Origin: an uncultured Flavobacteriaceae bacterium
Lineage (GTDB): Bacteria > Bacteroidota > Bacteroidia > Flavobacteriales > Flavobacteriaceae
Direction: 5' to 3'
NCBI GenBank assembly: GCA_938020445.1
Contig: CALIIC010000031.1
Coordinates: 1 to 64,000, forward strand
DNA length: 64,000 nt
This document shows, piece after piece, positions 19,366-32,606 of the stretch. The translations under genes were made by a program, and so were the position numbers. The notes beneath the pieces were generated by a model, which saw only the letters and a program-made list of their open reading frames with translations, searched no databases and was not told the origin of the DNA. How positions within the stretch are numbered: the first letter of the stretch is position 1; every line of letters starts with the position of its first letter.

Positions 19366-19938
19366 ATGTTCCAACTCGGAAAAACCATTGTGTCGGAAGA
19401 AATCATCGAGCATGATTTTGTGTGTAACCTTACTGCATGCAAAGGTGCTTGCTGTATCGACGGGAATGCGGGAGCTCCTTTAGAAGATAAAGAAACCGAA
19501 ATCCTTGTCGACATCTACGCAAAAGTAAAACCCTTTCTGAGGGCAGAAGGTATTGCCGCAATCGAGTCGCAAGGTGCCTTTGTAAAAGGGGAAGATGGCG
19601 AATGGGAAACACCCTTGGTCAATGAAAGCGAATGTGCCTACGTTGTATTTTCGGAAAACGGCACCGCAAAATGTGGTTTGGAAGAAGCCTATAATGCGGG
19701 GATTACCTCATGGAAAAAACCGGTTTCCTGCCATTTGTACCCGATTCGGGTACGGGAATATACCGAACTCACCGCAGTGAACTACCATAAATGGGAAATT
19801 TGCGACCCCGCTTGTAGTTTGGGGGCCGAACTGAAGGTTCCTATTTATAAATTCGTAAAGGAAGCGCTTGTTCGAAAATTTGGAACAGCATGGTACGAAG
19901 AACTGGAAAAAGTCGCAGAAGAGCACCTTAGACCGTAG
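19366..19938 (+). CDS. DUF3109 (YkgJ-like cysteine-rich) protein
   Basis: A 190-residue protein of the DUF3109 family. The N-terminal CNLTACKGACC cluster, the later CAYVV and CGLEEAY cysteines, the PVSCHLYPIR block, and the CDPAC pair suggest an iron-sulfur or zinc site, as proposed for YkgJ-type proteins. The biochemical function is unknown. The start is at ATG 19366 because conserved homology begins at MFQLGKTIVSEE and a promoter lies just before it. It overlaps the end of the convergent kinase gene by 11 bases. Confidence 0.8.
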   Translation: MFQLGKTIVSEEIIEHDFVCNLTACKGACCIDGNAGAPLEDKETEILVDIYAKVKPFLRAEGIAAIESQGAFVKGEDGEWETPLVNESECAYVVFSENGTAKCGLEEAYNAGITSWKKPVSCHLYPIRVREYTELTAVNYHKWEICDPACSLGAELKVPIYKFVKEALVRKFGTAWYEELEKVAEEHLRP

Positions 19939-21886
19939 GAATACGCAGCACTACTTTGGTCCCGGAAGGCACCCCCTCTTCATCGTGAAGGTCAACGATA
20001 TCTACTTCGAAGGAATTTTGATAGTCTTTTGAGAAATTGGCCAATCGCTCCTTTGTAATATCAATTCCCACAGATTTACGTTTGAGCACTTTCCCATCTT
20101 TAATTTTTTGCGCAGCTACCCTGCCTACACCATTGTCGGTAATACTAATGTAGATGTAATGTTCATCATCACGGCTTACACGCAAGTCGATATTTTTGAT
20201 GCCTTCCTTAGAGGAAAGTCCGTGCCACAAAGCATTTTCCAAAAAAGGCTGTAAAATCAAGGAGGGTATCTTTACTTGATGTACATCAATACCCGGGTCA
20301 ATGCTTATTTTGAAGTTAATTTCATTGGAGAAGCGAATATCTTCAATGTTCATATACAATTCTACCGTTTCGAGCTCTTCGGCCAGAGGTATTTCTTTTA
20401 GCGAGGAGGCTTCCAAAATTTTCCGTACCAATTTGGAAAATTTGTTCAGGTAATGAACGGCATTTTTCTGCTCGTTATTAATAATGTAAAGTTTAATTGA
20501 ATTTAGAGAGTTGAACAGAAAATGTGGATTCATTTGACTGCGAAGCATACTCTGTTCCAGTGTTAGTACCTTTTTTTCATTTTTAAGCTGGTATTGTCGA
20601 TAAAGAATATAGAAAATACCTGCCAATAGGGCCAAGGCTATACCACTAATAAGAATCAACGTTTCGTTCTTTCTAAGTTTCAACTTCACATTCTCGTTCT
20701 CCATCGCCAACACTGCAATCTCGTTGGTTTTTTTCTCGGTGTCGTAGCGAATGATAATGTCGTTCACATAGCGAAGGTTGCGTTCATTTGAAACCTCTCG
20801 CTCAAAATGTTGCTCTTTTTTATAATACTCCAAAGCAGTTTCAAAATCTTTCTGTTTGATGGCCAAATCAGATAAAAATCCGTACGCTTCGGACTGGGAA
20901 GCAATCAACTCGAACTTCTCGGCCAACGCCAACCCTTTAAGTAGGTACTGCTTCGATTCCCTAAACCGATTTAAATGAATCAACGTCCAACCAAGGTTAA
21001 TATACACCGAGCTAAGAACCGACATATCACCGATCGCCTCTGCCTTTGTTGCCGCCACTTCCAGCATTTCCAAAGCCTCTTCGGTCTTATCTTGATGAAC
21101 AAATACGTGGGCAATACTATAATTACAAATAACCCTCCCTTTATCAGAATCAATTAGCTCGTTGTATCGCAAAGAGGTTTCAAAACTCTCCAAGGCCTCG
21201 GTCAATTTTCCCTGCGCCTCATAACACTCCCCTACGTTTTGATGATTAATGGCCAACCCAAGATTGTTCCCCAACTCCTCATCCAGTCTTATTGATTCGG
21301 TAAACTGTTCAATAGCTTTGGTGTATTGTTGTAGGGTCTGGTAAATGTTCCCTATGGCATTTAGAGAAACATTGATACTTCTCTTTAGCCCTATGGAAGG
21401 ATTTTCTACACTTTCTGCCAACTCCAAAGCCTTTTGATTATAATCCAGTGCGGCCGTAATATTGTCTGTCTTTCGATGAATGACGCTGATCATATTAAGG
21501 CTATACACCTCAAACTCTATGTTCTTTGCCTCTTGTGCCACCTCATAGGCATCGTGGTGCAAGGTCAAACTCTTAGAAAATTCTGAAATATTCCGGTATT
21601 TCCTACCCAATTGGTTTAGTACATACGCCTGCCCATCCAAATACTTTTTATCAAGGGCTTTCTTGGAGAAAAAACGCATCAAAACGGTGTCGTTTCGAAA
21701 AGGTCGTAAAACCGCATCAAGATCCCTGTAGGTAGTAGGGGCCGCCTTGATCAAACTATCCGTCTTTTTTTCGAATGTCTCCGGAATTTCTTGGCTCCAA
21801 GCACTTTCACAAAAGTATAAAAGTGCTAAAACGGGCAGTACGCCCGTTCGAATCTTAAAGTAGATATTTTTAAAGAGCCCAAGCAT
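19928..21886 (-). CDS. TPR sensor histidine kinase, LytS-like
   Basis: A 652-residue membrane kinase. It has a signal or anchor at the N-terminus (about residues 13-30), about six TPR repeats (roughly 80-380), one membrane helix at about 410-430 and a His_kinase/HATPase module with H455 in SQMNPHFLFNSLNS. This is the common flavobacterial design in which extracytoplasmic TPRs sense or bind a ligand. It is the second gene after the LytTR regulator, eight bases away, so the two surely act together. The target genes are unknown. Confidence 0.88.
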   Translation of the reverse strand: MLGLFKNIYFKIRTGVLPVLALLYFCESAWSQEIPETFEKKTDSLIKAAPTTYRDLDAVLRPFRNDTVLMRFFSKKALDKKYLDGQAYVLNQLGRKYRNISEFSKSLTLHHDAYEVAQEAKNIEFEVYSLNMISVIHRKTDNITAALDYNQKALELAESVENPSIGLKRSINVSLNAIGNIYQTLQQYTKAIEQFTESIRLDEELGNNLGLAINHQNVGECYEAQGKLTEALESFETSLRYNELIDSDKGRVICNYSIAHVFVHQDKTEEALEMLEVAATKAEAIGDMSVLSSVYINLGWTLIHLNRFRESKQYLLKGLALAEKFELIASQSEAYGFLSDLAIKQKDFETALEYYKKEQHFEREVSNERNLRYVNDIIIRYDTEKKTNEIAVLAMENENVKLKLRKNETLILISGIALALLAGIFYILYRQYQLKNEKKVLTLEQSMLRSQMNPHFLFNSLNSIKLYIINNEQKNAVHYLNKFSKLVRKILEASSLKEIPLAEELETVELYMNIEDIRFSNEINFKISIDPGIDVHQVKIPSLILQPFLENALWHGLSSKEGIKNIDLRVSRDDEHYIYISITDNGVGRVAAQKIKDGKVLKRKSVGIDITKERLANFSKDYQNSFEVDIVDLHDEEGVPSGTKVVLRIPTV

Positions 21887-21894
21887 AAAAGGTT

Positions 21895-22629
21895 CTAGAG
21901 CATGTCTAGAAAATCAGATTTTTTCTGCCTAGATACCGGGATCTTGTGGTTCGACTTTAGGACAACATAGCCATCTGTCTTCAAGAATTCTTTAATCTTG
22001 GAAAGGTTGATAATGTAGGAGTTGTGAATTCTGAAAAAAGATTCTTCGGGTAACAGCTCATTCACTTCTTTCAATTTCTTCGTTAAAACAATTTTTTGCC
22101 CATCAGATAAATAAACGGTGCTGTAATTCCCATCAGATTCGGCATACAATATCTCGTCACTTTCCAAAAAAAGTAATTTCCCATCGGTATTGATCGTAAT
22201 CTTCTTGTGAAGCGCGTTGGCATTGAAATTCAAGAGGATTTTTTCCAGTCGTTCAACAGAGAAATTCTTTGAATTGTGTTTTTTGATTTTAACAATGGTA
22301 TCTTTTAAATCATCGGTATCGATCGGTTTTAGCAGGTAATCGATGGCTTCGTTCTTCAATGCCTTGATCGCATACTGGTTATAAGCCGTGGTAATGACTA
22401 CCGGAAAGTTCTTATTGGTAAGTTTTTGAATGAACTGAAACCCATCCATTGTAGGCATTTCGATATCCAAAAAAAGGCAATCCGGGGTGTTTTTTTCAAG
22501 ATATCCCAATGCTTCCTTTGGATCTGTAAACGAAGCTCCGATATTAATTTCATCACTGAAATTGGTAAGCTCCCAAGAAAGGCTCTGTATCGCTTTTAAC
22601 TCGTCATCTACTAGTACCGCTTCTATCAT
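21895..22629 (-). CDS. LytTR-family response regulator
   Basis: A 244-residue regulator with a receiver domain (phosphoacceptor D55 in FLDIEMPT, DD at 8-9, and K104 region in LLKPI) and a C-terminal LytTR DNA-binding domain (about 145-240, with SFFRIHNSYIINL). It is the first gene of the two-component operon and is preceded by a full flavobacterial promoter. The usual output is activation of a small set of genes, often nearby, but no clear direct-repeat target was found here. Confidence 0.9.
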   Translation of the reverse strand: MIEAVLVDDELKAIQSLSWELTNFSDEINIGASFTDPKEALGYLEKNTPDCLFLDIEMPTMDGFQFIQKLTNKNFPVVITTAYNQYAIKALKNEAIDYLLKPIDTDDLKDTIVKIKKHNSKNFSVERLEKILLNFNANALHKKITINTDGKLLFLESDEILYAESDGNYSTVYLSDGQKIVLTKKLKEVNELLPEESFFRIHNSYIINLSKIKEFLKTDGYVVLKSNHKIPVSRQKKSDFLDML

Positions 22630-23919: not shown

Positions 23920-23950
23920 CATGTTTACCTTTTAAAAATGATGGAACCAA
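23920..23950 (+). promoter_or_regulatory. ECF-type promoter motif, copy C
   Basis: CATGTTTACCTTTT, then AAAAA and GGAACCAA. Counting from ACC, the GG-AAC half begins at the same distance as in the copies at 28853 and 29381. It lies about 20 bases before ATG 23971. Confidence 0.45.
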
Positions 23951-23970
23951 CAACTATAAACCAAAACAGT

Positions 23971-24627
23971 ATGAAAAATATGAATTACTTATTACTTATG
24001 GGAGCCATGTTGTTAGGAATCTCATGTTCCGACCGTCCCACCACAGAAAACGAATTGAAAGCTGTTTCCTATAGCGCCAACGAAAATGAAGGGAACGCCT
24101 TTATGGAGTTGTATTTGCACCAACATTCGCTGGAAACGACCTTGACCGAACTAAATTGTCAAAAAGAATTCCTCATCTCCGAAATCGAAGCTGGTAACGA
24201 AGAACTGTTACCAGAGCTCGAACAAGTACAAATGGGCATTGAACAGCACAGTTACTTTTATGAAGTGAACCAAGAACTTCTTTTAGGAATTAGATGTCCG
24301 ACCAAAAAATGTCCACGACCAAAGCCAAACCCCTGTGGAGACCTTAAAGGTTGTGCCCTAAGCTGCCCGATCAGAATGCCGGAAGATCGATTGATTCTTT
24401 GGGTGCCAGGAGGGCAGGAAGGAGCTATTGACATTACCCTCGTAACCTTTGAAGGAGAACCCTGTGGTGAAGTAGTAGATATGTATGAAGTTGAAGGGGG
24501 TGAGAATTTGGTTGGTATTGTGTTAGAGAGCAATGGATGCAACGACGGTTTCATTGAGGTTCGAAAAGAATATGAATATGCCGAAGGAGGTTCTATATTG
24601 TATCGCGTGCCGATTTCCAATGACTAG
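23971..24627 (+). CDS. Hypothetical lipoprotein upstream of the CHAT gene
   Basis: A 218-residue lipoprotein with lipobox LGISC, lipid-bearing C19. The mature part is acidic, with a predicted helical stretch (LETTLTELNCQKEFLISEIE) and then a cysteine-rich middle (RCPTKKCPRPKPNPCG, GCALSCP), followed by beta-rich sequence. No family is recognised. The frame extends upstream, but ATG 23971 begins the signal peptide and follows the shared promoter motif. The CHAT gene follows after a 57-base gap that contains a terminator hairpin. Confidence 0.65.
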   Translation: MKNMNYLLLMGAMLLGISCSDRPTTENELKAVSYSANENEGNAFMELYLHQHSLETTLTELNCQKEFLISEIEAGNEELLPELEQVQMGIEQHSYFYEVNQELLLGIRCPTKKCPRPKPNPCGDLKGCALSCPIRMPEDRLILWVPGGQEGAIDITLVTFEGEPCGEVVDMYEVEGGENLVGIVLESNGCNDGFIEVRKEYEYAEGGSILYRVPISND

Positions 24628-24655
24628 AACCTATAACACTAAAAAGATGAATTAT

Positions 24656-24682
24656 AAGCCCCGGGGATTTTTCGGGGCTTTT
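24656..24682 (+). terminator. Terminator or attenuator directly before the CHAT start
   Basis: AAGCCCCG (24656-24663) pairs with CGGGGCTT (24673-24680), followed by TT and, three bases later, the ATG of the CHAT gene at 24685. The stem is GC-rich and perfect. Confidence 0.7.
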
Positions 24683-24684
24683 AA

Positions 24685-27525
24685 ATGATGAAAAAAAGTA
24701 ATCTCGTACCGATCTTTCTACTGGTTTTCTTCCTTGCTTTTTCTCAAGCCGAAGAAAAACAAACTGCGCTATTGAATTCCTATTTTGATCAGGGGTACGA
24801 ACAAACGTACCAAAACAAGGACAGCGCCTATTTTTATTTTGAAAAAGCACTACAGCTGGCGAAACAACTAAATGACCTCCCTACGCAACTAGATATCATT
24901 AGTTATACAATTCACGCGGCGGATTATCATTATGATTTAAGGAAACTTCAGGGCGAACTTTCGAAAACAGAAAAAATATTACTCCAAAAAAACGCTTCCA
25001 ATACTATTGAAGGTTTTGGAGACTACCATGACTCATACCTACTCGATAAAGGGAATTATTATTTCAAGACCAAGGAATACGAAAAGGCAAAAACCTATTT
25101 TCAACAACTATTCAACACCCTTACAAAAATACCAACAAAGCAGCTTGACCAAGATCAAGTTGAGACGCTCTACACCGCTTTTACTTTTTTAGCGACCATC
25201 TATAAAAACACCGGTAAATTTGACTTGTCCGAAGAATTTTACCTGAATGCCATCAACTTTGTGGACAAAAACAAGTTGAAATTCCAGGACTATCAAGATT
25301 ACATAAACAATTCGAATCGTTTGTTGGCACAATTATATAGCCAAACCGGACAATACAAAAAGGCGAATCACCTTTTATCCCAAGCACGAACTACCTATCT
25401 ACGTTACTACGAAAAAGATAGCAAGTTCAAGAACAACGTCATTAGCATTCACCAAAAACTGGCGGAAAATTGCCTTGAGCAAGATAGCCTCGCAAAAGCC
25501 TTAAATTGGCTAGGGAAAGGGAAGGAATACTTGACCGAAAAAGACCCCTTCTTTAAAGAATACCTTGTGCTGTACGGGGATGTATTTGCAGGTTCTTCAG
25601 AAGCAAAAAATAGTTTACAGCAATACGAACTTGCCTTAAACGCGTATACGGACTATCACAAAAACCAGCCACACCAAGATATCGCAAAGATTCATGGCAA
25701 GATCGCCGCTTTTTATTTAAAACAGGGCGATTTTGAAGAAGGGTTGCAGTCAATAACACATGCCCTTACAAACTCGGGTAGAAAGGTCGCCCTTGTATCA
25801 TATGATACTCGAATACCTCCTGAAACGGTTTTTTCCAAAAGACAATTATTGCATTTGCTCGACGTAAAATTGCAGCTACTGCAGCTCGGTTTCCAAAAAT
25901 CTGGACAGTACGGGTATCTAAGAGCTGCATTGACAACAAATACGAACATCCTACAAACATTCGACTTATTAAAAAAAGAGTTCGACAGCAAATTGGATAA
26001 ACAATTCCTGGCCGAGACCTGCTATCCTATTTTTCATCATATGATTGCCATAGCGCATCTTGCCTATGAACGGGAAAAAAATCCGAGCTTTGTTGAATTG
26101 GCGCTGAACATTGCAGAAAAAAACAAGGACTTTATACTTCTAGAAGCCCTTAGAAGTACCAGTGCCAGTAAATACGGAAACGTTCCCGAGCACATCCTTG
26201 ATAAAGAATCCCAATTCCGTTCAGAGATTGCCAATTTAGAAACCCGGCTTTTTGACAAACCCGAAGACAGTCAAACGTTTTCCACGCCCTTGTTTGAACT
26301 CAAAAAAGAATACTATACTTTTTTAGATAGCATAAAGTCTACCTACCCAAAATACCATCAGCTGAAGTACGGCACTAAAACCTTGCCTCTTTCTGAAATT
26401 AGGACTACGCTTTTAAAAAATCAGGGCACTTTACTCTCTTATACGGTGACCGCCGAGCATCTGTACGTGATCACCCTGAGTGACACAAAAGAGGCATTTT
26501 TAAAAATTCCTTTTACAGCGTCTGACAGGAGTAACATACGAAAATTCTACACCCTTATTTCGACCCCCTCTATTGCACAAGATTCTCAAATCTCAGAAGT
26601 AGGGGAACTGCTATTCGAGAAGGTGCTCAAAAATTCACTAAAAGGGTTCAATACAAAACAATTGACTATTATTCCCGATGGTTTACTACACTATATTCCT
26701 TTTGACATCCTTTCTGAAAACGGTTCTTACTTGCTAAAAACGAAAAGTATTGGTTACGGAAACGCTATTAGTTCGCTCATTTCACTTAAAAATAATCCAA
26801 GACAGAAAAATGCAAAAGTACTGGCATTTGCCCCTCGTTTTGAAGGTGCTGATAACGAGAGTAGCACGCGGCAATTTGGACAATTGGCTTACAACGACCA
26901 AGAACTCGTTAAAGTCAACGCATTTTTTAAAACGTCTTCTTATTTATATGAAAAGGCAACACTGCAAAACTTTAGGGAGCAGGCACCATCATTCGGAATT
27001 ATTCATTTAGCTACCCATGCATCGGCGAACGATGAGTTTCCCGACTACTCCTATTTGGCATTTAGTCAAAATGAAAAGGAAAACATTCTGTACACAAAAG
27101 ATCTTTACGGGAGTACCATCAATGCCGAGATGGTCACACTAAGCGCTTGCCAAACAGGCATCGGCAAGCTTCGAAACGGGCAAGGAATGCTAAGTTTATC
27201 AAAAGGATTTTATTATGCGGGTGCCAAGTCTTTAGTAAATACCCTTTGGAAGATAAACGACAAAAGCAGTGTGAAATTAATGGAGTTTTTCTATGAAAAT
27301 TTGAGTGAGGGCAAAACAAAACAGGAAGCCTTGCGTGCTGCCAAATTAAAGTACTTGAAAAACACAGACGACCCTTTGTTACGACATCCTTATTATTGGT
27401 CGGCCTTTGTCGTATCGGGAGATACTGCCCCTATCGCAAGAAAAACCTGGGCACAATATGCAACCTTCGGAATTCTTGGTTTATTCGTTCTTGGCTTTGT
27501 TACCCGCCGATTGGGCCTATTCTAA
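24685..27525 (+). CDS. Secreted, tail-anchored TPR-CHAT peptidase-like protein
   Basis: A 946-residue protein. A signal peptide (MMKKSNLVPIFLLVFFLAFS, cleavage near QAEEK) is followed by TPR-like helical repeats (about 30-520) and a C-terminal CHAT (caspase-HetF-associated) domain. The expected catalytic pair is present: H778 in HLATHA and C822 in LSACQTG. A last hydrophobic segment (about 925-940) and basic RR end suggest anchoring in the inner membrane with the enzyme in the periplasm. CHAT domains are cysteine peptidases in several systems. The substrate here is unknown. It ends convergently with the sigma-factor operon, overlapping by nine bases. Confidence 0.85.
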   Translation: MMKKSNLVPIFLLVFFLAFSQAEEKQTALLNSYFDQGYEQTYQNKDSAYFYFEKALQLAKQLNDLPTQLDIISYTIHAADYHYDLRKLQGELSKTEKILLQKNASNTIEGFGDYHDSYLLDKGNYYFKTKEYEKAKTYFQQLFNTLTKIPTKQLDQDQVETLYTAFTFLATIYKNTGKFDLSEEFYLNAINFVDKNKLKFQDYQDYINNSNRLLAQLYSQTGQYKKANHLLSQARTTYLRYYEKDSKFKNNVISIHQKLAENCLEQDSLAKALNWLGKGKEYLTEKDPFFKEYLVLYGDVFAGSSEAKNSLQQYELALNAYTDYHKNQPHQDIAKIHGKIAAFYLKQGDFEEGLQSITHALTNSGRKVALVSYDTRIPPETVFSKRQLLHLLDVKLQLLQLGFQKSGQYGYLRAALTTNTNILQTFDLLKKEFDSKLDKQFLAETCYPIFHHMIAIAHLAYEREKNPSFVELALNIAEKNKDFILLEALRSTSASKYGNVPEHILDKESQFRSEIANLETRLFDKPEDSQTFSTPLFELKKEYYTFLDSIKSTYPKYHQLKYGTKTLPLSEIRTTLLKNQGTLLSYTVTAEHLYVITLSDTKEAFLKIPFTASDRSNIRKFYTLISTPSIAQDSQISEVGELLFEKVLKNSLKGFNTKQLTIIPDGLLHYIPFDILSENGSYLLKTKSIGYGNAISSLISLKNNPRQKNAKVLAFAPRFEGADNESSTRQFGQLAYNDQELVKVNAFFKTSSYLYEKATLQNFREQAPSFGIIHLATHASANDEFPDYSYLAFSQNEKENILYTKDLYGSTINAEMVTLSACQTGIGKLRNGQGMLSLSKGFYYAGAKSLVNTLWKINDKSSVKLMEFFYENLSEGKTKQEALRAAKLKYLKNTDDPLLRHPYYWSAFVVSGDTAPIARKTWAQYATFGILGLFVLGFVTRRLGLF

Positions 27526-28242
27526 GGCATCCAAAATATTGGTTGCCGCATCGGCTTTAAAAGTCTTATTTGCAATCACCTTACGCAACTGCTCCTTACT
27601 TTTTTCCAATTCTCCCAATTTTAAGTAACTAAGCGCCAAATACCAGTTGGCACGATCTCCCAAGGCACCATCTTGTGCCATATAAGATTGTAAAGCAGCT
27701 ACCGCCTTATTATGATTTCCCAGCTGCATATGAACAATGGCACTGTAGAATTCGATATAAGGATCGTTCTGCTCCTGGTTCAATTCACTAAAAAGTTCAA
27801 GTGCCAAGGCATATTCATCATTTTCATAGGCTATAAAGGCCCGGTCTTTAAGATCATCGATCTGGTTACCTCGCTCTATTGGGTGCACCACATTATCATA
27901 GGGTTCAAAGTTGGCTTCATAAAGCTGGTTGGGATCCATCGCACCCGTATTAAAGAAAAGCCACGAACCCAAACCAAGAACCAAAGCAATCGAGGCAGCA
28001 GCTAACCACGGGCGCAGTTTGAATACTTTTACCGGCCTGGAGGGTTCCTCTTTTCCTAAGGATTCGAACAATTCTTTGATTTCTTGGCGCTCTTGTTTTT
28101 TTAAGGCACCCTGTAATTCCATTTGAAATACCAACTCCTCTTCAAATTCAGCATCCGTTGCTCTTAAACGCGCTACCTCTGCCAATCCGTTTTCATCGAG
28201 CCCCCCTTCAAAATATGCATTGATCAATGATTCTTTATCCAT
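27517..28242 (-). CDS. Membrane TPR protein, likely anti-sigma partner
   Basis: A 241-residue protein with an acidic cytoplasmic N-terminal part (DKESLINAYFEGGL, about 1-75), one membrane helix (about 83-102, LAAASIALVLGLGSWLFF) and C-terminal TPR repeats (about 135-240) outside. This layout is like that of anti-sigma proteins. It overlaps the ECF sigma gene by eight bases and is translated after it, which supports a direct regulatory pairing. No classical zinc-binding anti-sigma motif is seen, so the role is inferred from layout and context. Confidence 0.7.
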   Translation of the reverse strand: MDKESLINAYFEGGLDENGLAEVARLRATDAEFEEELVFQMELQGALKKQERQEIKELFESLGKEEPSRPVKVFKLRPWLAAASIALVLGLGSWLFFNTGAMDPNQLYEANFEPYDNVVHPIERGNQIDDLKDRAFIAYENDEYALALELFSELNQEQNDPYIEFYSAIVHMQLGNHNKAVAALQSYMAQDGALGDRANWYLALSYLKLGELEKSKEQLRKVIANKTFKADAATNILDALE

Positions 28243-28792
28243 TTTGCCGTTGTATTAGATCTCTCAACGATTTAAGACATCTCGATTTTTGACTTTTTAC
28301 CACATTCTTATTTTCATATCCTTGCTGAGTCATGATTTCGTCCAACTTTAGGTTTTGCAAATAAAATAGCTCAAGCACTTCTCTACACTTGTCCCCTAAC
28401 CGTTTAAAATTGGCCAATAGCAATTTTTGATAATCACTAGGACCTTCGTCTGATGAAACGTCTTGGATGACGGCTTGCTCATATTGGTCAAAGTTGTACT
28501 CCTCATCTGTGTATACCTGTTTTTTTGAATCCCGAAAGTGCTTGAAAAGCATAAATTTTCCTGTTCCAAAAAGATAGGTCTTCAAAGTACTCTTTAATTG
28601 ATCGAGCTTTCCCGCCAAGGCATTTTCATAGAGCACGATAATCGCATCTTGAAACACATCCTCGAGCAATGATTCATCATTTGTGTACCGAGAGGCGAAT
28701 TTGAAAAACTCAACCTTATACTGCTTGTAGACGCTCTTAAGAGCATTTCTGTCCCGCTTTTTTAATTGGGCAAGTAGTTGCTCATCTTTCAT
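28235..28792 (-). CDS. ECF-type RNA polymerase sigma factor
   Basis: A 185-residue sigma-70 family protein. Region 2 is visible as EFFKFA...SLLEDVFQDAIIVLYE and region 4 as DKCREVLELFYLQNLKLDEI with a following helix rich in lysine and serine. There is no region 1 or 3, so it is an ECF sigma factor. It lies divergently from a lipoprotein gene that carries the shared ACC-N14-GGTAC motif and shares an operon with the membrane TPR protein. Its own promoter looks housekeeping-type. Confidence 0.88.
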   Translation of the reverse strand: MKDEQLLAQLKKRDRNALKSVYKQYKVEFFKFASRYTNDESLLEDVFQDAIIVLYENALAGKLDQLKSTLKTYLFGTGKFMLFKHFRDSKKQVYTDEEYNFDQYEQAVIQDVSSDEGPSDYQKLLLANFKRLGDKCREVLELFYLQNLKLDEIMTQQGYENKNVVKSQKSRCLKSLRDLIQRQNG

Positions 28793-28824
28793 TAGTGCTG
28801 GTTTCTGTCGGAGGTTAACATCAT

Positions 28825-28832
28825 TAAATATA
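28825..28832 (-). promoter_or_regulatory. -7 box for the ECF sigma operon
   Basis: TATATTTA on the minus strand is close to TAnnTTTG, 32 bases before ATG 28792. It differs from the divergent ACC/GGTAC motif. Confidence 0.4.
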
Positions 28833-28852
28833 AAATTTTTTTAGGGAGCGTG

Positions 28853-28879
28853 TTGACCTTTTTAAATCTTAGGTACAAA
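28853..28879 (+). promoter_or_regulatory. ECF-type promoter motif, copy A
   Basis: TTGACCTTTTTAAA followed by GGTACAAA; ACC to GG spacing is 14 bases, as in copies B (29381) and C (23920). It lies 31 bases before ATG 28911. Confidence 0.5.
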
Positions 28880-28910
28880 CCACTGTATAACCTTAAAAAA
28901 ATACATACAA

Positions 28911-29369
28911 ATGAAAACGAACTTCACTACAAGAGGAATTTCCGATAACCTTATCCGAAGAACCGTATGTGCGTTCCTGCTGCTTGGGGGACTTCTAAGT
29001 TCCTGTACCGAAGGAGCGGTTGATCGAATTTTTGAAGAAATAGACGCTTTAGAGGATACCGGAAGTCTAACCAAACTAAAAGGACATTGGATACGAGTCG
29101 AAAGCACTAATGCCAGTTCTGATAATATGATTATCAAAATGACAGGAACTAGCGGTGAGATTATTGACAAGGCGCAATCAAACTTTGAAAACGGTGCGAT
29201 CAAATGGAAGGAAGTGGAAGTCGTTGACAGCGAAAATTACCTACATCAAGAACTCGGAAGTGATGGCCTGTACTATGAGGGCACCATGAAATTTGGACAA
29301 GACGATACCCTGCGCATTTCGGTGGTCGCCAACGGAGCAGGTACTAATCAAAAATGGATTAAAAATTAA
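28911..29369 (+). CDS. Lipoprotein with a paralogous ~100-residue domain
   Basis: A 152-residue lipoprotein (lipobox LLSSC, C32). Residues about 50-150 form a domain that reappears in the next protein: LKGHWIRVES/LNGEWIRIAS, MTGTSG/MSGTSG, IKWKEVEVVD/IKWKNIKAVD, QELGSDGLYY/EELGSDSAYY and DDTLRISV. I do not recognise this domain. It is the first gene downstream of promoter copy A, divergent from the sigma factor, and probably under its control. Confidence 0.7.
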   Translation: MKTNFTTRGISDNLIRRTVCAFLLLGGLLSSCTEGAVDRIFEEIDALEDTGSLTKLKGHWIRVESTNASSDNMIIKMTGTSGEIIDKAQSNFENGAIKWKEVEVVDSENYLHQELGSDGLYYEGTMKFGQDDTLRISVVANGAGTNQKWIKN

Positions 29370-29380
29370 ATAACCCACGG

Positions 29381-29411
29381 CATGTTTACCTTTTTAAAAA
29401 GTGGGTACCAA
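29381..29411 (+). promoter_or_regulatory. ECF-type promoter motif, copy B
   Basis: CATGTTTACCTTTTTAAAAA, GTGG, GTACCAA. Identical to copy C for the first 14 bases and to copy A through the ACCTTTTTAAA core. It lies 28 bases before ATG 29440. Confidence 0.5.
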
Positions 29412-29439
29412 TGGCTGTAATCTAATTAAAAAAACAATC

Positions 29440-31545
29440 ATGAAAAAAAGAAACATATTCACAAAACGAATTTTAAACGCTGCACTCATTTGCCTCTTTG
29501 GTGGCAGTAGCGTTCTTTTCAACGCCTGTTCAACAGAATCGGTCGTTGAAACGATAGACATTATAGAGGAAGGGGTCGAAACGGAAGCCACTTTGGACAA
29601 TCTCAACGGAGAATGGATTCGAATTGCCAGTAACAACCCAGTTGCGGATGGTATTATCATCGATATGTCTGGCACATCGGGTACAATTACAGACAAGGCA
29701 GGATCTGGTTTTGCAATCGGGGATATTAAATGGAAAAATATTAAAGCGGTAGACGCCGAAAATTTCACCCATGAAGAACTAGGAAGTGACAGTGCCTACT
29801 ACCAGGCAACGATGTTATTACAATCAGATGACACCTTGCGTATTTCGGTAGGGTCGTCTGGAGCAGGGAACGCTCAAAAATGGGTGCGTGAGGGCCAATA
29901 CATCCCTATAGACAGTCAAGGCCCCACCACAACAGAGACACTTCCTTGTAGTATTAGTGAAGCCCGTACCCTTTCGAACGGTACCGCAGCAGTCGATTAC
30001 TATATAGATTGTGTATTGGACATAACGGCGCCATTAACGATCGAACCCGGCACGGTTATTCAATTCGGCGAAAATGCCGGCTTGGGCATCTATGACAGTG
30101 GGTCTTTAAACGCCAAAGGAACAGCCGATGCACCCATTGTATTTGAAGGTGAAAATACGGTAGACGGGTACTGGCGCGGCATACATATCGAAACTCGATC
30201 CCTGAACAACCTACTTGAAAATGTACGCATTCAAGATGCTGGAAGCAACTATGTGTATTGCTGTAACGGGGTAGCGAGCTTGTTTTTAAAAGGGGCAAAA
30301 GTTGGCCTAAAAAATGTTCAAATCACCAACGGAGGCGGTCGTGGCATTATGGCTATTGGCGATACGGAGTTCGAAACCTATAGCAACCTGAGAATTAACA
30401 GCCATGAAGACTATCCATTATATCTAAATGGGGCAATAGCCGATGGATTGGATGGTACGACTTCAGATTACAGTGGCAATGACAAGGATTACGCATTCAT
30501 CACCGTTGCCAATATCGCGCAGCCTACTAAATGGAGCAAACTAAATGTTCCTTATTTAATAGAAGGTAAGGTCTTGGATGTAACCGATGCCTTCACTTTG
30601 GAAGCCGGCACGGAAATTGTTTTTCAGGAAAACGGTGGAATCGGAGTCTATGATCAAGGGTCATTGGCCGTACAAGGAACCGCTTCCGAACCGGTGAGCA
30701 TGAAGGGCTTCAGTCCCATCCCAGGTTTTTGGCGTGGTATTCATATGGAAACGACCAGTATTGAAAACTCCCTAAACTACCTTCAAGTATCTGATGCGGG
30801 AAGCAATTACGTTTACTGCTGTAATACAATAGGCTCTTTATTCCTCAAAAGTGGTACCGCAAGCGTTACCAACTCTACCTTTAGTAATGGAAAATCATAC
30901 GGGATCGTCACGCAACCAGATTTTGAGTTCAATGCATACAACGGCAACACCATTACCACTCACCAGCAGGCCGCCATGTATATTTCAGCAGCTATGATGG
31001 GCGCACTAGATGGTATAAAATCTTCTTATACCGGGAATGACAAAGACTATTTATTGGTATACAACAGCAATATAGAGGAAGACATAACAGTACTTCCCAA
31101 TGATGTCCCCTATCAAATTGAAAACAATACGGTCATTGATATCACTGCTCGCATTAACCTTCTGGGCGGTGTCGAAATAGTCTTCGAGGAAGCTGCCGGA
31201 TTAGGAGTTTACGACAACGGGGTCTTCAATGCAGTTGGGGAGGCTTCCAATAAGATTGTTTTTAGGGGCGCTCAAAATACCGCAGGCTTCTGGCGCGGAA
31301 TCCACACTGAAACCAACAGTATGGATAATGTGATTCGTTATGCCGAAATAAATAATGGCGGTAGCAACTATGTATACTGTTGCAACAATCCAAGCAGCGT
31401 ATTTGTAAAAGGAGGTCAACTAACAGTATCGAATTCAACCATTTCCAATAGTGGAGGGTGTGGTATGTACATCAGTTCAGGAGCAACTGTAACCGAGAGC
31501 GACAACACGTATGAAAACAACCAAGAAGGGGATGTTTGCGACTAG
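29440..31545 (+). CDS. Lipoprotein with threefold beta-helix repeat and vicinal cysteines
   Basis: A 701-residue lipoprotein (C30 in VLFNAC). After the domain shared with the preceding gene come three modules with a period of 186-187 residues. Each module has the blocks ExxGxGxYDxG, GxWRGIHxET and SNYVYCCN. The CC pairs are at residues 274-275, 460-461 and 647-648. The pattern (short strands, SLFLKxG, TNSTxSN) is that of a parallel right-handed beta-helix, likely on the cell surface. The vicinal Cys pairs in all three modules are unusual. Function is unknown; it belongs to the putative ECF regulon. Confidence 0.78.
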   Translation: MKKRNIFTKRILNAALICLFGGSSVLFNACSTESVVETIDIIEEGVETEATLDNLNGEWIRIASNNPVADGIIIDMSGTSGTITDKAGSGFAIGDIKWKNIKAVDAENFTHEELGSDSAYYQATMLLQSDDTLRISVGSSGAGNAQKWVREGQYIPIDSQGPTTTETLPCSISEARTLSNGTAAVDYYIDCVLDITAPLTIEPGTVIQFGENAGLGIYDSGSLNAKGTADAPIVFEGENTVDGYWRGIHIETRSLNNLLENVRIQDAGSNYVYCCNGVASLFLKGAKVGLKNVQITNGGGRGIMAIGDTEFETYSNLRINSHEDYPLYLNGAIADGLDGTTSDYSGNDKDYAFITVANIAQPTKWSKLNVPYLIEGKVLDVTDAFTLEAGTEIVFQENGGIGVYDQGSLAVQGTASEPVSMKGFSPIPGFWRGIHMETTSIENSLNYLQVSDAGSNYVYCCNTIGSLFLKSGTASVTNSTFSNGKSYGIVTQPDFEFNAYNGNTITTHQQAAMYISAAMMGALDGIKSSYTGNDKDYLLVYNSNIEEDITVLPNDVPYQIENNTVIDITARINLLGGVEIVFEEAAGLGVYDNGVFNAVGEASNKIVFRGAQNTAGFWRGIHTETNSMDNVIRYAEINNGGSNYVYCCNNPSSVFVKGGQLTVSNSTISNSGGCGMYISSGATVTESDNTYENNQEGDVCD

Positions 31546-31554
31546 TTCGCAAAC
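31534..31554. other. Hairpin across the stop of the beta-helix gene
   Basis: GTTTGCGA (31534-31541) pairs perfectly with TCGCAAAC (31547-31554) across CTAGT; the stem covers the last codons and the stop. No U-tract follows. Confidence 0.5.
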
Positions 31555-31598
31555 TCCTTCCCCCTTAAACATCAAACTTAATTTTAAACAATAAACAA

Positions 31599-31949
31599 AT
31601 GAAAACAATAAAGAACACCTTTTTAAGGATTGCATTCTGTACAAGTCTACTAGTACTGGCAGTAGGTTGTGATAAAGATAACCCTTTAGGCGTGTTGGAT
31701 GTCTGTGGATCCGATTCATGGACCGAGTCTGTTCAAACAGAGCTAACCGCCTGGAATACGGCCCTATCCAATTATGCTAGTGCACCAACTGCAGAAAATT
31801 GTAACACTTTTAAGACAACCGGCAAAGCATATCTCGATGCATTGGAAGATGTTAAACCTTGTGTGGGAGCGGCCAATCAGCAAGCATTCGACCAGGTAAT
31901 TGCAGAAGCCAAAGTAGATTTAGATGAAACCGATTGTACAGACCTTTAA
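31599..31949 (+). CDS. Small cysteine-containing lipoprotein
   Basis: A 116-residue lipoprotein (lipobox LAVGC, C24). The mature part has four further cysteines (DVCGSDS, AENCNTF, VKPCVGA, ETDCTDL) that may form two disulfides, in an otherwise helical, acidic sequence. No family is recognised. It follows the beta-helix gene by 53 bases on the same strand. Confidence 0.62.
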   Translation: MKTIKNTFLRIAFCTSLLVLAVGCDKDNPLGVLDVCGSDSWTESVQTELTAWNTALSNYASAPTAENCNTFKTTGKAYLDALEDVKPCVGAANQQAFDQVIAEAKVDLDETDCTDL

Positions 31950-31985
31950 AAACGAAAGAAATTGAAAAACTAAAAATAGCAACAG

Positions 31986-32606
31986 ATGAAAAAAGTACTC
32001 TATTTTGCAACTATATTCTTGCTGACGACTGTAATAAGTGCCTGTTTGGGAGAAGCAAGCGCCAAGCTGAAGGATGCAAAGGAAACCGTTTCGAACACCA
32101 CGACCCTTATAAAGGAAGCTCATAAGGTAGAAAATAGCATCGAAGTTCTTAAGAACAAGGTCTCTTTGACCAATGAAGAACTAAAAACATGGCTTCCAAA
32201 AACCATCGGTGATTTGGAACGGAGCGGGTTCAAAGTCGGTAGTACAGGCTACGCCAACGTAGCCTCGGTGGAGGGCACCTATAAATCAAAGGAACAAGGC
32301 CAACGATTAAAAGTGGTGGTTATGGATGGTGCCGGACCTACGGGAAGCATTATGATGGCAGGTCTTGGCATGGCCAGTAAAATCGATATGGAAGAGGAGA
32401 ATGAAAACAAGCACCAAAAAACCGTGACCGTAAACGGGACGAAGGCAATGCAGACCTATCATAAAAAACGTTTCGAAACGGCCCTACAATTTGTGTATGA
32501 CAATCGTTTTGGAGTCATGGTCAACGGGATGCAGATGGAACCGGAAGAAACATGGTCTATGGTAGAAAAGTTGAATTTGAAACAACTCACTGAACTCGCG
32601 AAATGA
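31986..32606 (+). CDS. Hypothetical lipoprotein
   Basis: A 206-residue lipoprotein (lipobox VISAC, C20). A helical stretch follows (LKDAKETVSNTTTLIKEAHK), then a beta-rich domain with the repeated hydrophobic pattern LKVVVMDGAGPTGSIM and a late FVYDNRFGVMVNG strand. No family is recognised. It is the last gene of the lipoprotein run and is followed by a strong terminator at 32741. Confidence 0.62.
   Translation: MKKVLYFATIFLLTTVISACLGEASAKLKDAKETVSNTTTLIKEAHKVENSIEVLKNKVSLTNEELKTWLPKTIGDLERSGFKVGSTGYANVASVEGTYKSKEQGQRLKVVVMDGAGPTGSIMMAGLGMASKIDMEEENENKHQKTVTVNGTKAMQTYHKKRFETALQFVYDNRFGVMVNGMQMEPEETWSMVEKLNLKQLTELAK

Follow-up and report, generated by a model that had tools for sequence, protein, structure and literature searches.

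A CHAT protein as the predicted site-1 protease of an ECF anti-sigma factor in Flavobacteriaceae and other Bacteroidota

Because CHAT domains belong to the caspase/separase type, an exported CHAT protein encoded next to a sigma factor and a membrane protein raises the question of what it might cut. We have addressed this question for a locus of an uncultured Flavobacteriaceae bacterium, using a window of 64,000 nucleotides (the whole stretch analysed: positions 1 to 64,000 of contig CALIIC010000031.1, assembly GCA_938020445.1). Three genes of the window are the main subject: an extracytoplasmic function (ECF)-type sigma factor of 185 aa (28235-28792, minus strand), a transmembrane TPR (TM-TPR) partner of 241 aa, matched by Pfam TPR families and predicted to be an anti-sigma factor (27517-28242, minus strand), and an exported, membrane-anchored TPR-CHAT protein of 946 aa, predicted to be a site-1 protease from Pfam matches, conservation and models (24685-27525, plus strand). 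An earlier note on this DNA had listed an ECF sigma factor, an overlapping TM-TPR protein, an exported CHAT protein carrying the pair H778/C822 as well as an anchor at its C-terminus, and five lipoproteins, and had guessed that the CHAT protein cuts the TPR partner. The parts list has been borne out; the guess is supported by a conserved neighbourhood, the predicted topology, covariation between the likely S1 pocket and the partner linker, and decay of that linker.

The answer that we favour, at a probability of roughly 0.7, is that the CHAT protein would cut the TM-TPR protein to free the sigma factor, i.e. would carry out the site-1 cleavage of an ECF anti-sigma factor. The support is computational and spans gene linkage, topology, a conserved catalytic dyad, covariation, linker decay and a local motif. 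According to the proposed mechanism, the TM-TPR protein would be an anti-sigma factor, whose cytosolic N-terminal domain would hold the ECF sigma factor and whose TPR domain would lie in the periplasm. The TPR-CHAT protein would be exported and would have its C-terminal helix in the inner membrane, with the caspase/separase-type domain facing the periplasmic linker of the partner. On a trigger signal, perhaps sensed by the TPRs of the CHAT protein, the linker would be cut after R124 (one large clade would have a different residue, perhaps Met, at this site); the stump would presumably be removed by a general RseP-type protease and others, and the freed sigma factor would transcribe the local lipoprotein genes and, via the upstream lipoprotein gene, the CHAT gene, which would constitute positive feedback. 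Binding of the partner to the sigma factor and the second cleavage are steps that we infer, and the exact bond, R124-G125, is predicted with lower confidence than the cleavage itself. An M50 (RseP-type) protease was considered as specific support and was rejected; it is present here, but in 14 of 14 control genomes too.

Conservation of the module and topology of its proteins

Conservation of the gene neighbourhood, which the earlier note had proposed to check, has been investigated for CHAT loci of the window's family. The search covered 149 genomes (Flavobacteriaceae, as judged by the named loci), and 67 of these had a TPR-CHAT homologue. The resulting family set consists of 87 loci, i.e. 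80 fetched places, eight named loci (two of them duplicates) and the window; several weak CHAT matches, as well as L036 and L038, duplicates of L041 and L043, were left out. The sigma and TM-TPR genes were found within the fetched stretch in 82 of the 87 loci and adjoin each other in all 82; a lack of conserved neighbours, which the note had named as refuting its idea, was not observed for these two genes. Marine laboratory strains with the module are Kriegella aquimaris DSM 19886 and a Zobellia type strain (L036-L039). In the remaining five loci the picture differs: L082 and L095 are located at the ends of contigs, the pair is about 7 kb away from L070 (as L132) and elsewhere in the genome for L099 (as L127), and no pair was found for L049. 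Three gene arrangements occur: convergent, which is the window type, divergent with or without intervening cargo genes, and co-directional in the order sigma-TPR-CHAT. In the window, the CHAT gene is convergent with the sigma/TM-TPR gene pair, and the open reading frame (ORF) of the TM-TPR protein overlaps that of the sigma factor by 8 bases and that of the CHAT protein by 9.

Beyond the family, 395 genomes of the phylum were searched with a profile, scoring being restricted to the top two candidates per genome; CHAT relatives of all kinds were present at E ≤ 1e-40 in 143 of the 395. With 59 further loci outside the family that were read, the total number of CHAT proteins of at least 700 aa is 154. 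For the 135 with a C-terminal hydrophobic segment, a TPR partner was encoded in the stretch in 128 cases and a detected sigma factor as well in 119. The other 19 CHATs comprise a borderline one (L051), one from a broken gene (L160) and 17, from 14 loci, with an ordinary CHAT C-terminus. A TPR partner lies by three of these 17 (two of the 14 loci, L170 and L171); in L170, which has two CHATs, the sigma/TPR pair starts about 3 kb beyond the second. Since the partner is far commoner beside anchored than beside anchorless CHATs, the pair goes with the membrane-anchored kind. Four genomes had no sigma/TPR pair in the stretch, the CHATs being fragments or broken in G118, G030 and G051 (L136-L138) and anchorless in G039 (L139). 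The gene set is a conserved module, which recurs in other families with C-terminally anchored CHATs. Anchorless CHATs were also observed near an ECF sigma gene in L169, L171 (with the TPR partner) and L173; such loci may represent a soluble variant related to the module.

The CHAT protein of the window has a Pfam CHAT domain (PF12770, E 1e-58) at residues 640-913 with TPRs on its N-terminal side. The catalytic residues His778 (27016-27018, plus strand) and Cys822 (27148-27150, plus strand) are present in 88 of 88 CHATs in the family and in 128 of 128 CHAT/partner pairs. A signal peptide has been read by eye, with Q21 conserved in 84 of the 88, and the C-terminal membrane anchor is a helix of residues 922-945 (27448-27519, plus strand), corresponding to helix 351-374 of the CHAT-domain model, whose numbering is that of the window protein minus 571. 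A crude 19-residue hydropathy threshold detected an N-terminal segment in 32 and a C-terminal one in 80 of the 88 CHATs. Given the signal peptide and the C-terminal helix, the CHAT domain is expected to be located in the periplasm and tethered to the membrane.

The AlphaFold2 model of the partner (mean predicted local distance difference test score, 90) has three cytosolic N-terminal helices (residues 3-63), a single transmembrane helix at residues 78-97 (27952-28011, minus strand), which is also found by hydropathy, and a helix at 104-111, followed in the periplasmic part by a low-confidence flexible linker (112-130) and the TPR domain (131-240). One hydrophobic segment was found in 68 of 82 partners and two in one, and none reached the threshold in 13. 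The N-terminal domain would lie in the cytosol and the TPR domain in the periplasm. R124 sits in the flexible linker between the transmembrane helix and the TPR domain of the model, a usual position for a site-1 cut.

The sigma factor was assigned by a Pfam Sigma70_r2 match (E 4e-6) and by TIGR02937 (sigma70-ECF) above its cut-off; region 4 is weak and under the cut-off. With a limit of E ≤ 1, every one of the 37 aligned sigma homologues matched Sigma70_r2. C136 and C172 of the window sigma factor are invariant in 37 of 37 aligned module homologues, and a redox or metal role for them is possible.

The partner linker and the pocket of the CHAT domain

Evidence on the substrate has been sought in 128 CHAT/partner pairs with 127 distinct partners, a set that leaves out L160, whose CHAT is broken, and one of the two L187 CHATs. 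The linker residue aligned with R124, which precedes the predicted scissile bond (R124-G125; 27868-27873, minus strand), is Arg in 98 of the 128, in most cases with Gly or Ser at the next position; the remainder of the linker is variable. On the CHAT side, the position four residues after the invariant W855 (D859; 27259-27261, plus strand), chosen beforehand by analogy with separase, is Asp in 102 pairs, Glu in 25 and Asn in one. Asp and Arg occur together in 98 pairs, Asp without Arg in four, Arg without Asp in none and neither in 26 (Fisher test, 3e-23, uncorrected for kinship). When 367 well-filled CHAT columns were scanned against the partner Arg, E740 (26902-26904, plus strand) came first and D859 second, and both are likely acids of the S1 pocket. 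Glu is found at 740 in 98 of 98 pairs with the partner Arg and in 3 of 30 without it, and Asp at 859 in 98 of 98 and 4 of 30, respectively. The two top ranks hold with the 21-row clade described below removed or reduced to one row, and in the reverse scan R124 is first of 236 partner columns for association with D859.

On the CHAT-domain tree, E740 changes three times, every time inside a clade that lacks R124: one of 21 rows with a DPGLPTTM-like linker (the Met clade), one of L118, L093 and L084 (Lys, Lys and Gln), and one of L164, L142 and L148. D859 is lost in the same three clades, except that L164 keeps it. When 362 columns were ordered by how far their changes on the tree overlap with those of R124, E740 was at the top and D859 in third place, and in 15 genomes having both Arg and non-Arg partners the D859 state tracks the CHAT protein's own neighbour in 13. 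Mutual information with average product correction, calculated with all rows, placed 776-124, 740-124 and 859-124 at ranks 1-3 of 85305; when the Met clade was counted as a single row, the ranks of 740-124, 776-124 and 859-124 were 2, 5 and 40 of 84942, and with this clade removed, 740-124 and 859-124 ranked 6 and 129 of 85176. The covariation of the R124 linker with the CHAT acids suggests that the partner would be the substrate of the CHAT protein and would be cut after R124.

In the CHAT-domain model, E740 belongs to a helix that comes after one of the core strands, C822 is in the loop between the elements carrying E740 and D859, and D859 opens the helix following the strand that ends before W855. 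The S1 pocket of caspase-3 consists of Arg64, Gln161 and Arg207 at comparable places, and the S1 pocket of CHAT could be a caspase pocket with the charges reversed.

Loci that have lost the CHAT gene provide a second line of evidence. Four loci keep a class III partner without CHAT: L124 (genome G132), L126 (G121), L128 (G049) and L129 (G036). With a class III CHAT query and all candidates scored, no class III CHAT was found in the four genomes; three of them carry CHATs of other classes. Columns conserved at 90% or more in 18 CHAT-bearing relatives served as the reference. Of the seven linker motif columns, 3, 5, 2 and 3 are kept in L124, L126, L128 and L129, respectively (13/28 in total); the cytosolic columns are kept at 29/32 and the TPR columns at 65/72 (94/104 jointly), and the conserved column just before the linker is kept in all four loci. 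In G027, where a CHAT is present elsewhere in the genome, the linker motif is complete (7/7). This decay of the linker where CHAT has been lost suggests the partner as the CHAT substrate. The sizes and order of neighbouring genes suggest one ancestral site for the four loci, the same as that of L134 in G044, where a class III CHAT gene, reduced to a pseudogene by six in-frame stops, was observed beside an open sigma/TM-TPR pair.

Several points weigh against cleavage of the partner by CHAT. Concerning the decay, the four CHAT-less loci go back to a single loss, though the motif is altered differently in each, and the sole conserved column of the transmembrane segment is kept in only one of the four. 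G044 retains the linker motif at 7/7 despite its CHAT pseudogene, so either this loss is recent or the case speaks against the proposed cleavage. No sigma gene was detected at the locus in L124 and L128, and those modules may be decaying more widely. Concerning the covariation, it rests on three clades, a tree-aware sign test has too few pairs for significance, and the agreement in 13 of 15 genomes reflects the same three clades. D859 is kept without an aligned Arg in L057 and L075 (Lys) and L164 (His), and in L053, which has Thr in the R124 column and an Arg two residues earlier; the mixed genomes that break the rule are G036 (via L057) and G090 (via L053). Both E740 and D859 are present in 17 of 17 anchorless CHATs, and they therefore look ancestral, the signal lying only in their loss. 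For mutual information, the positive control (sigma factor versus the cytosolic domain of the partner) gave no enrichment, and 20 shuffled pairings reached a top Z of up to 6.2, versus 6.3 for 740-124; because of these two results the ranking has been given little weight. The S1 placement of E740 and D859 was made by topology, not by coordinates. Furthermore, D2151 of separase, which recognises the P1 Arg, has been equated with K670 of a TPR-CHAT protein (PMC9729208), and K670 falls four residues beyond the place of D859 in our profile alignment, so that this published equation and our placement do not agree exactly.

Docking at the S1 pocket would likewise produce covariation, and it is conceivable that CHAT cuts nothing, its active-site groove docking the partner linker and relaying a change of conformation. 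CHAT would then be a sensor arm, as in DdvA. The latter, a sigma-linked non-CRISPR CHAT in the PDB (8rot/8rw5), has its CHAT inside the anti-sigma protein, which favours such a role. A mere dock, however, would not need the His/Cys pair that is invariant in all 128 pairs, and the linker is predicted to be flexible and located between the transmembrane helix and the TPR domain; we regard docking without cleavage as unlikely. Still less likely is that CHAT cuts the cargo lipoproteins or further proteins of the cell surface and that the sigma and anti-sigma factors merely control CHAT expression. A lipoprotein or some other exported protein is often encoded directly before CHAT (in 67 of 128 cases according to a crude pattern, with errors in both directions), and some loci contain genes for a subtilase or an aspartyl protease; against this, the cargo families vary between clades while the partner is constant, the CHAT residues track the partner linker, and the linker decays after CHAT loss.

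The role of the partner itself might also be the reverse of that assumed here. If the TM-TPR protein were a positive scaffold of the sigma factor, CHAT would clear the scaffold to end the response, and it is consistent with this that the N-terminal domain of the window partner has no zinc motif and that the curated anti-sigma model NF052375 matches it weakly (E 0.022). In favour of an anti-sigma factor are, on the other hand, the overlapping sigma and TM-TPR genes, the single transmembrane helix, and a match of the partner profile (E 1e-6) to an anti-sigma-like protein of the zinc type, whose gene adjoins a different ECF sigma gene in this genome, as well as an H-x3-C-x2-C motif in the partners of L155, L157 and L160 (other families), as in zinc anti-sigma domains. 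We consider the scaffold role very improbable, and release of the sigma factor through cleavage of its inhibitor by CHAT is the reading retained below.

Cargo lipoproteins and a promoter-like motif

The five lipobox proteins of the window, whose lipoboxes were identified by eye, are all encoded on the plus strand. One gene lies directly upstream of CHAT (23971-24627; the ORF runs from 23848 and the start at 23971 is a judgement); its product belongs to cluster c9, relatives of which precede CHAT in the nearest loci too. The other four genes point away from the sigma gene. They encode a cargo lipoprotein whose lipobox was read directly (28911-29369), a cargo beta-helix lipoprotein (29440-31545; ORF from 29401, start at 29440 likely) with a Pfam Beta_helix match of 2e-4 that is under the curated cut-off, and cargo lipoproteins of clusters c15 (31599-31949) and c7 (31986-32606), both perhaps read through from 29440. 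The beta-helix lipoprotein had been proposed as a conserved neighbour, and this was not confirmed, its family (cluster c17) being present in 7 of the 87 loci. Elsewhere the cargo consists of collagen-like, OmpA-like, DUF4412, DUF7849/PKD or subtilase proteins. Since cargo families change between clades, the lipoproteins are a variable cargo and not part of the core.

Besides the 67 of 128 genes directly before CHAT that were classified as exported or lipid-anchored by the crude pattern, 25 encode the partner itself, 16 cases have no gene within 400 bases and 20 are unclassified. In some loci outside the family (L152, L159, L185, L186, L188-L190 and L195-L197), a very small protein (about 60-80 residues) that resembles a lipoprotein is encoded directly before an anchored CHAT. 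A cluster c10 protein directly precedes CHAT in 12 loci (L054, L055, L058, L060, L067, L072, L075, L082, L084, L093, L106 and L118); that of L060, the sole member run, matches subtilase S8 in Pfam.

A common motif before three of the lipoprotein genes had been noticed previously, and this holds: ACCTTTTWAAANNNNDGGWAC has three mismatch-free occurrences in the window, at 23927, 28856 and 29388, and with two mismatches allowed no further window sites appear (0.28 in shuffles). These putative sigma-dependent promoter motifs, all on the plus strand, precede the lipoprotein-CHAT unit (23927-23947), the lipoprotein gene at 28911 (28856-28876) and the beta-helix lipoprotein gene (29388-29408); none is found upstream of the sigma gene or of the genes at 31599 and 31986. 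The motif pattern was derived from its three window sites, and counts in the assembly and in other loci are therefore the independent tests. In the assembly (4.66 Mb in 207 contigs, 82% complete), ACCTTTT-N9-GGWAC has exactly three exact matches, all at the window locus; with one mismatch, 95 sites versus 134 in a reversed control were obtained, which is background. The motif precedes locus genes in five of nine other window-type loci (L033, L034, L039, where it occurs twice, L040 and L041), and no exact match was found before locus genes in the other window-type loci L035, L037, L042 and L043. It also occurs before a locus gene in L083, and hits far from a gene start are present in L102 and L126. 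The motif may be the promoter used by the window sigma factor. A general scan of the window for promoter-like sequences remained at background level.

For other arrangements, all 16 divergent class II loci (L079, L085, L102-L104, L107, L109-L112, L114-L117, L119 and L120) have GTAAC-N17-GATA and TAACA-N16-GATA in the 350 bases that precede the sigma gene. These motifs sit on the strand of the cargo-CHAT operon and are possibly the promoter of those loci's own sigma factor. The common upstream motifs were weak in co-directional loci (at most 7/31) and in other convergent loci (at most 8/12).

A terminator-like hairpin (24656-24680, plus strand), obtained by folding the intergenic stretch between the lipoprotein and CHAT genes and unlisted by the terminator scan, ends a few bases 5' of the CHAT start codon. 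A stable hairpin of other sequence is found at the same place, so that eight of nine loci have one (the window, L033, L034, L035, L037, L039, L040 and L042); that of L041 is not clear. The pattern looks as if CHAT output were held below that of the upstream lipoprotein. A pair of a TPR histidine kinase and a LytTR regulator adjoins the module in the window (19928-22629), as it does in L033, L034, L037, L039, L040 and L043.

Known systems and biological meaning

The module has been compared with known systems. A CHAT-domain sequence profile found two meaningful kinds of PDB entry, the type III-E TPR-CHAT/Csx29 (top, E about 1e-6) and DdvA (E 1e-4). A full single CHAT sequence matched nothing at E 0.001, a single CHAT domain gave weak TPR-CHAT matches only, and profile searches with the full CHAT alignment or the partner were swamped by TPR proteins; that Csx30 is not named in the best 60 of 174 partner matches is uninformative. 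By fold, the CHAT model matches Csx29 (Z 26.7), separase (Z 26.5), DdvA (8rot/8rw5, Z 20.6-21.1) and gingipains (18-19); the fold search for the partner covered residues 126-241, its TPR part.

Csx29, a TPR-CHAT protein, cleaves Csx30, the inhibitor of the ECF-like CASP-sigma (PMC10028731). The likeness of our module to this type III-E (CASP/Craspase) system is that a TPR-CHAT protein is encoded with an ECF-like sigma factor and an inhibitor, here inferred. The differences are as follows: Csx29 owes its activation to target RNA, with Cas7-11 as the intermediary, whereas the module CHAT has a signal peptide and a membrane anchor; the module's partner spans the membrane, in contrast to Csx30; a TPR-CHAT protein of the type III-E group has Ser at the position four residues after the Trp, where the module CHATs mostly have Asp (D859); and the cut in Csx30 falls between residues 427 and 429, in another species after L407, and not at a conserved Arg such as partner R124.

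DdvA is the anti-sigma factor of DdvS in Myxococcus xanthus (PMC4374960), and DdvS drives an antiphage island (PMC12288465). An ECF sigma factor, a transmembrane anti-sigma factor and a CHAT domain make up one signalling unit there too; judging from the PDB title and molecule name, DdvA has anti-sigma and CHAT parts in one polypeptide, whereas these are separate genes in all module loci counted, and while DdvS controls the antiphage island, the module motif marks lipoprotein genes. For ECF54 sigma factors, CHAT and subtilase genes nearby have been described and proteolytic control proposed in a review (PMC8999054), a likeness to the 12 module loci with a subtilase-cluster protein before CHAT (Pfam run on one). 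ECF54 is described there as controlled without an anti-sigma factor, whereas the module has an anti-sigma-like partner.

With separase and the gingipains (clan CD) the module CHAT shares the fold and a probable Arg at P1; these are absent from the PDB sequence-profile matches and their partners differ. In regulated proteolysis of RseA, by DegS and RseP, and of RsiW, a membrane anti-sigma factor is cut on its periplasmic side, as is predicted for the module. Unlike in those systems, the site-1 protease of the module would be a cysteine protease of the caspase/separase fold that is encoded with its substrate. Under an antiphage defence reading, PADLOC gave no families for the sigma factor, the partner or CHAT at E ≤ 0.001. 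No description of the Bacteroidota triad was found in the open-licence papers searched, and an earlier mention is possible.

CHAT-linked control of a sigma factor is already known from Csx29/Csx30/CASP-sigma and DdvS/DdvA; with these precedents, a separate, exported and anchored CHAT protein acting on a transmembrane anti-sigma factor, with variable cargo, across Bacteroidota, would be a variant. A broader idea, tentative and in our estimate doubtful, is that the triad is the general, CRISPR-independent form, of which Csx29-Csx30-CASP-sigma and DdvA are offshoots, the CHATs having ancestrally been Arg-specific site-1 proteases whose S1 pocket changed with their anti-sigma substrates.

As judged from the sequences, many Bacteroidota appear to use a membrane-anchored, extracytoplasmic caspase/separase-like enzyme to cut a sigma inhibitor and switch on genes of surface proteins. 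Because this reading specifies the substrate, the bond and two specificity residues, it is testable. For the arm of type III-E CRISPR systems that controls a sigma factor, it would also provide a point of reference outside CRISPR, and it hints at a role of the secreted, membrane-anchored TPR-CHAT proteins of Bacteroidota. If true, an enzyme of the caspase/separase type would have a defined everyday job, the first cut in envelope signalling, in a major bacterial phylum.

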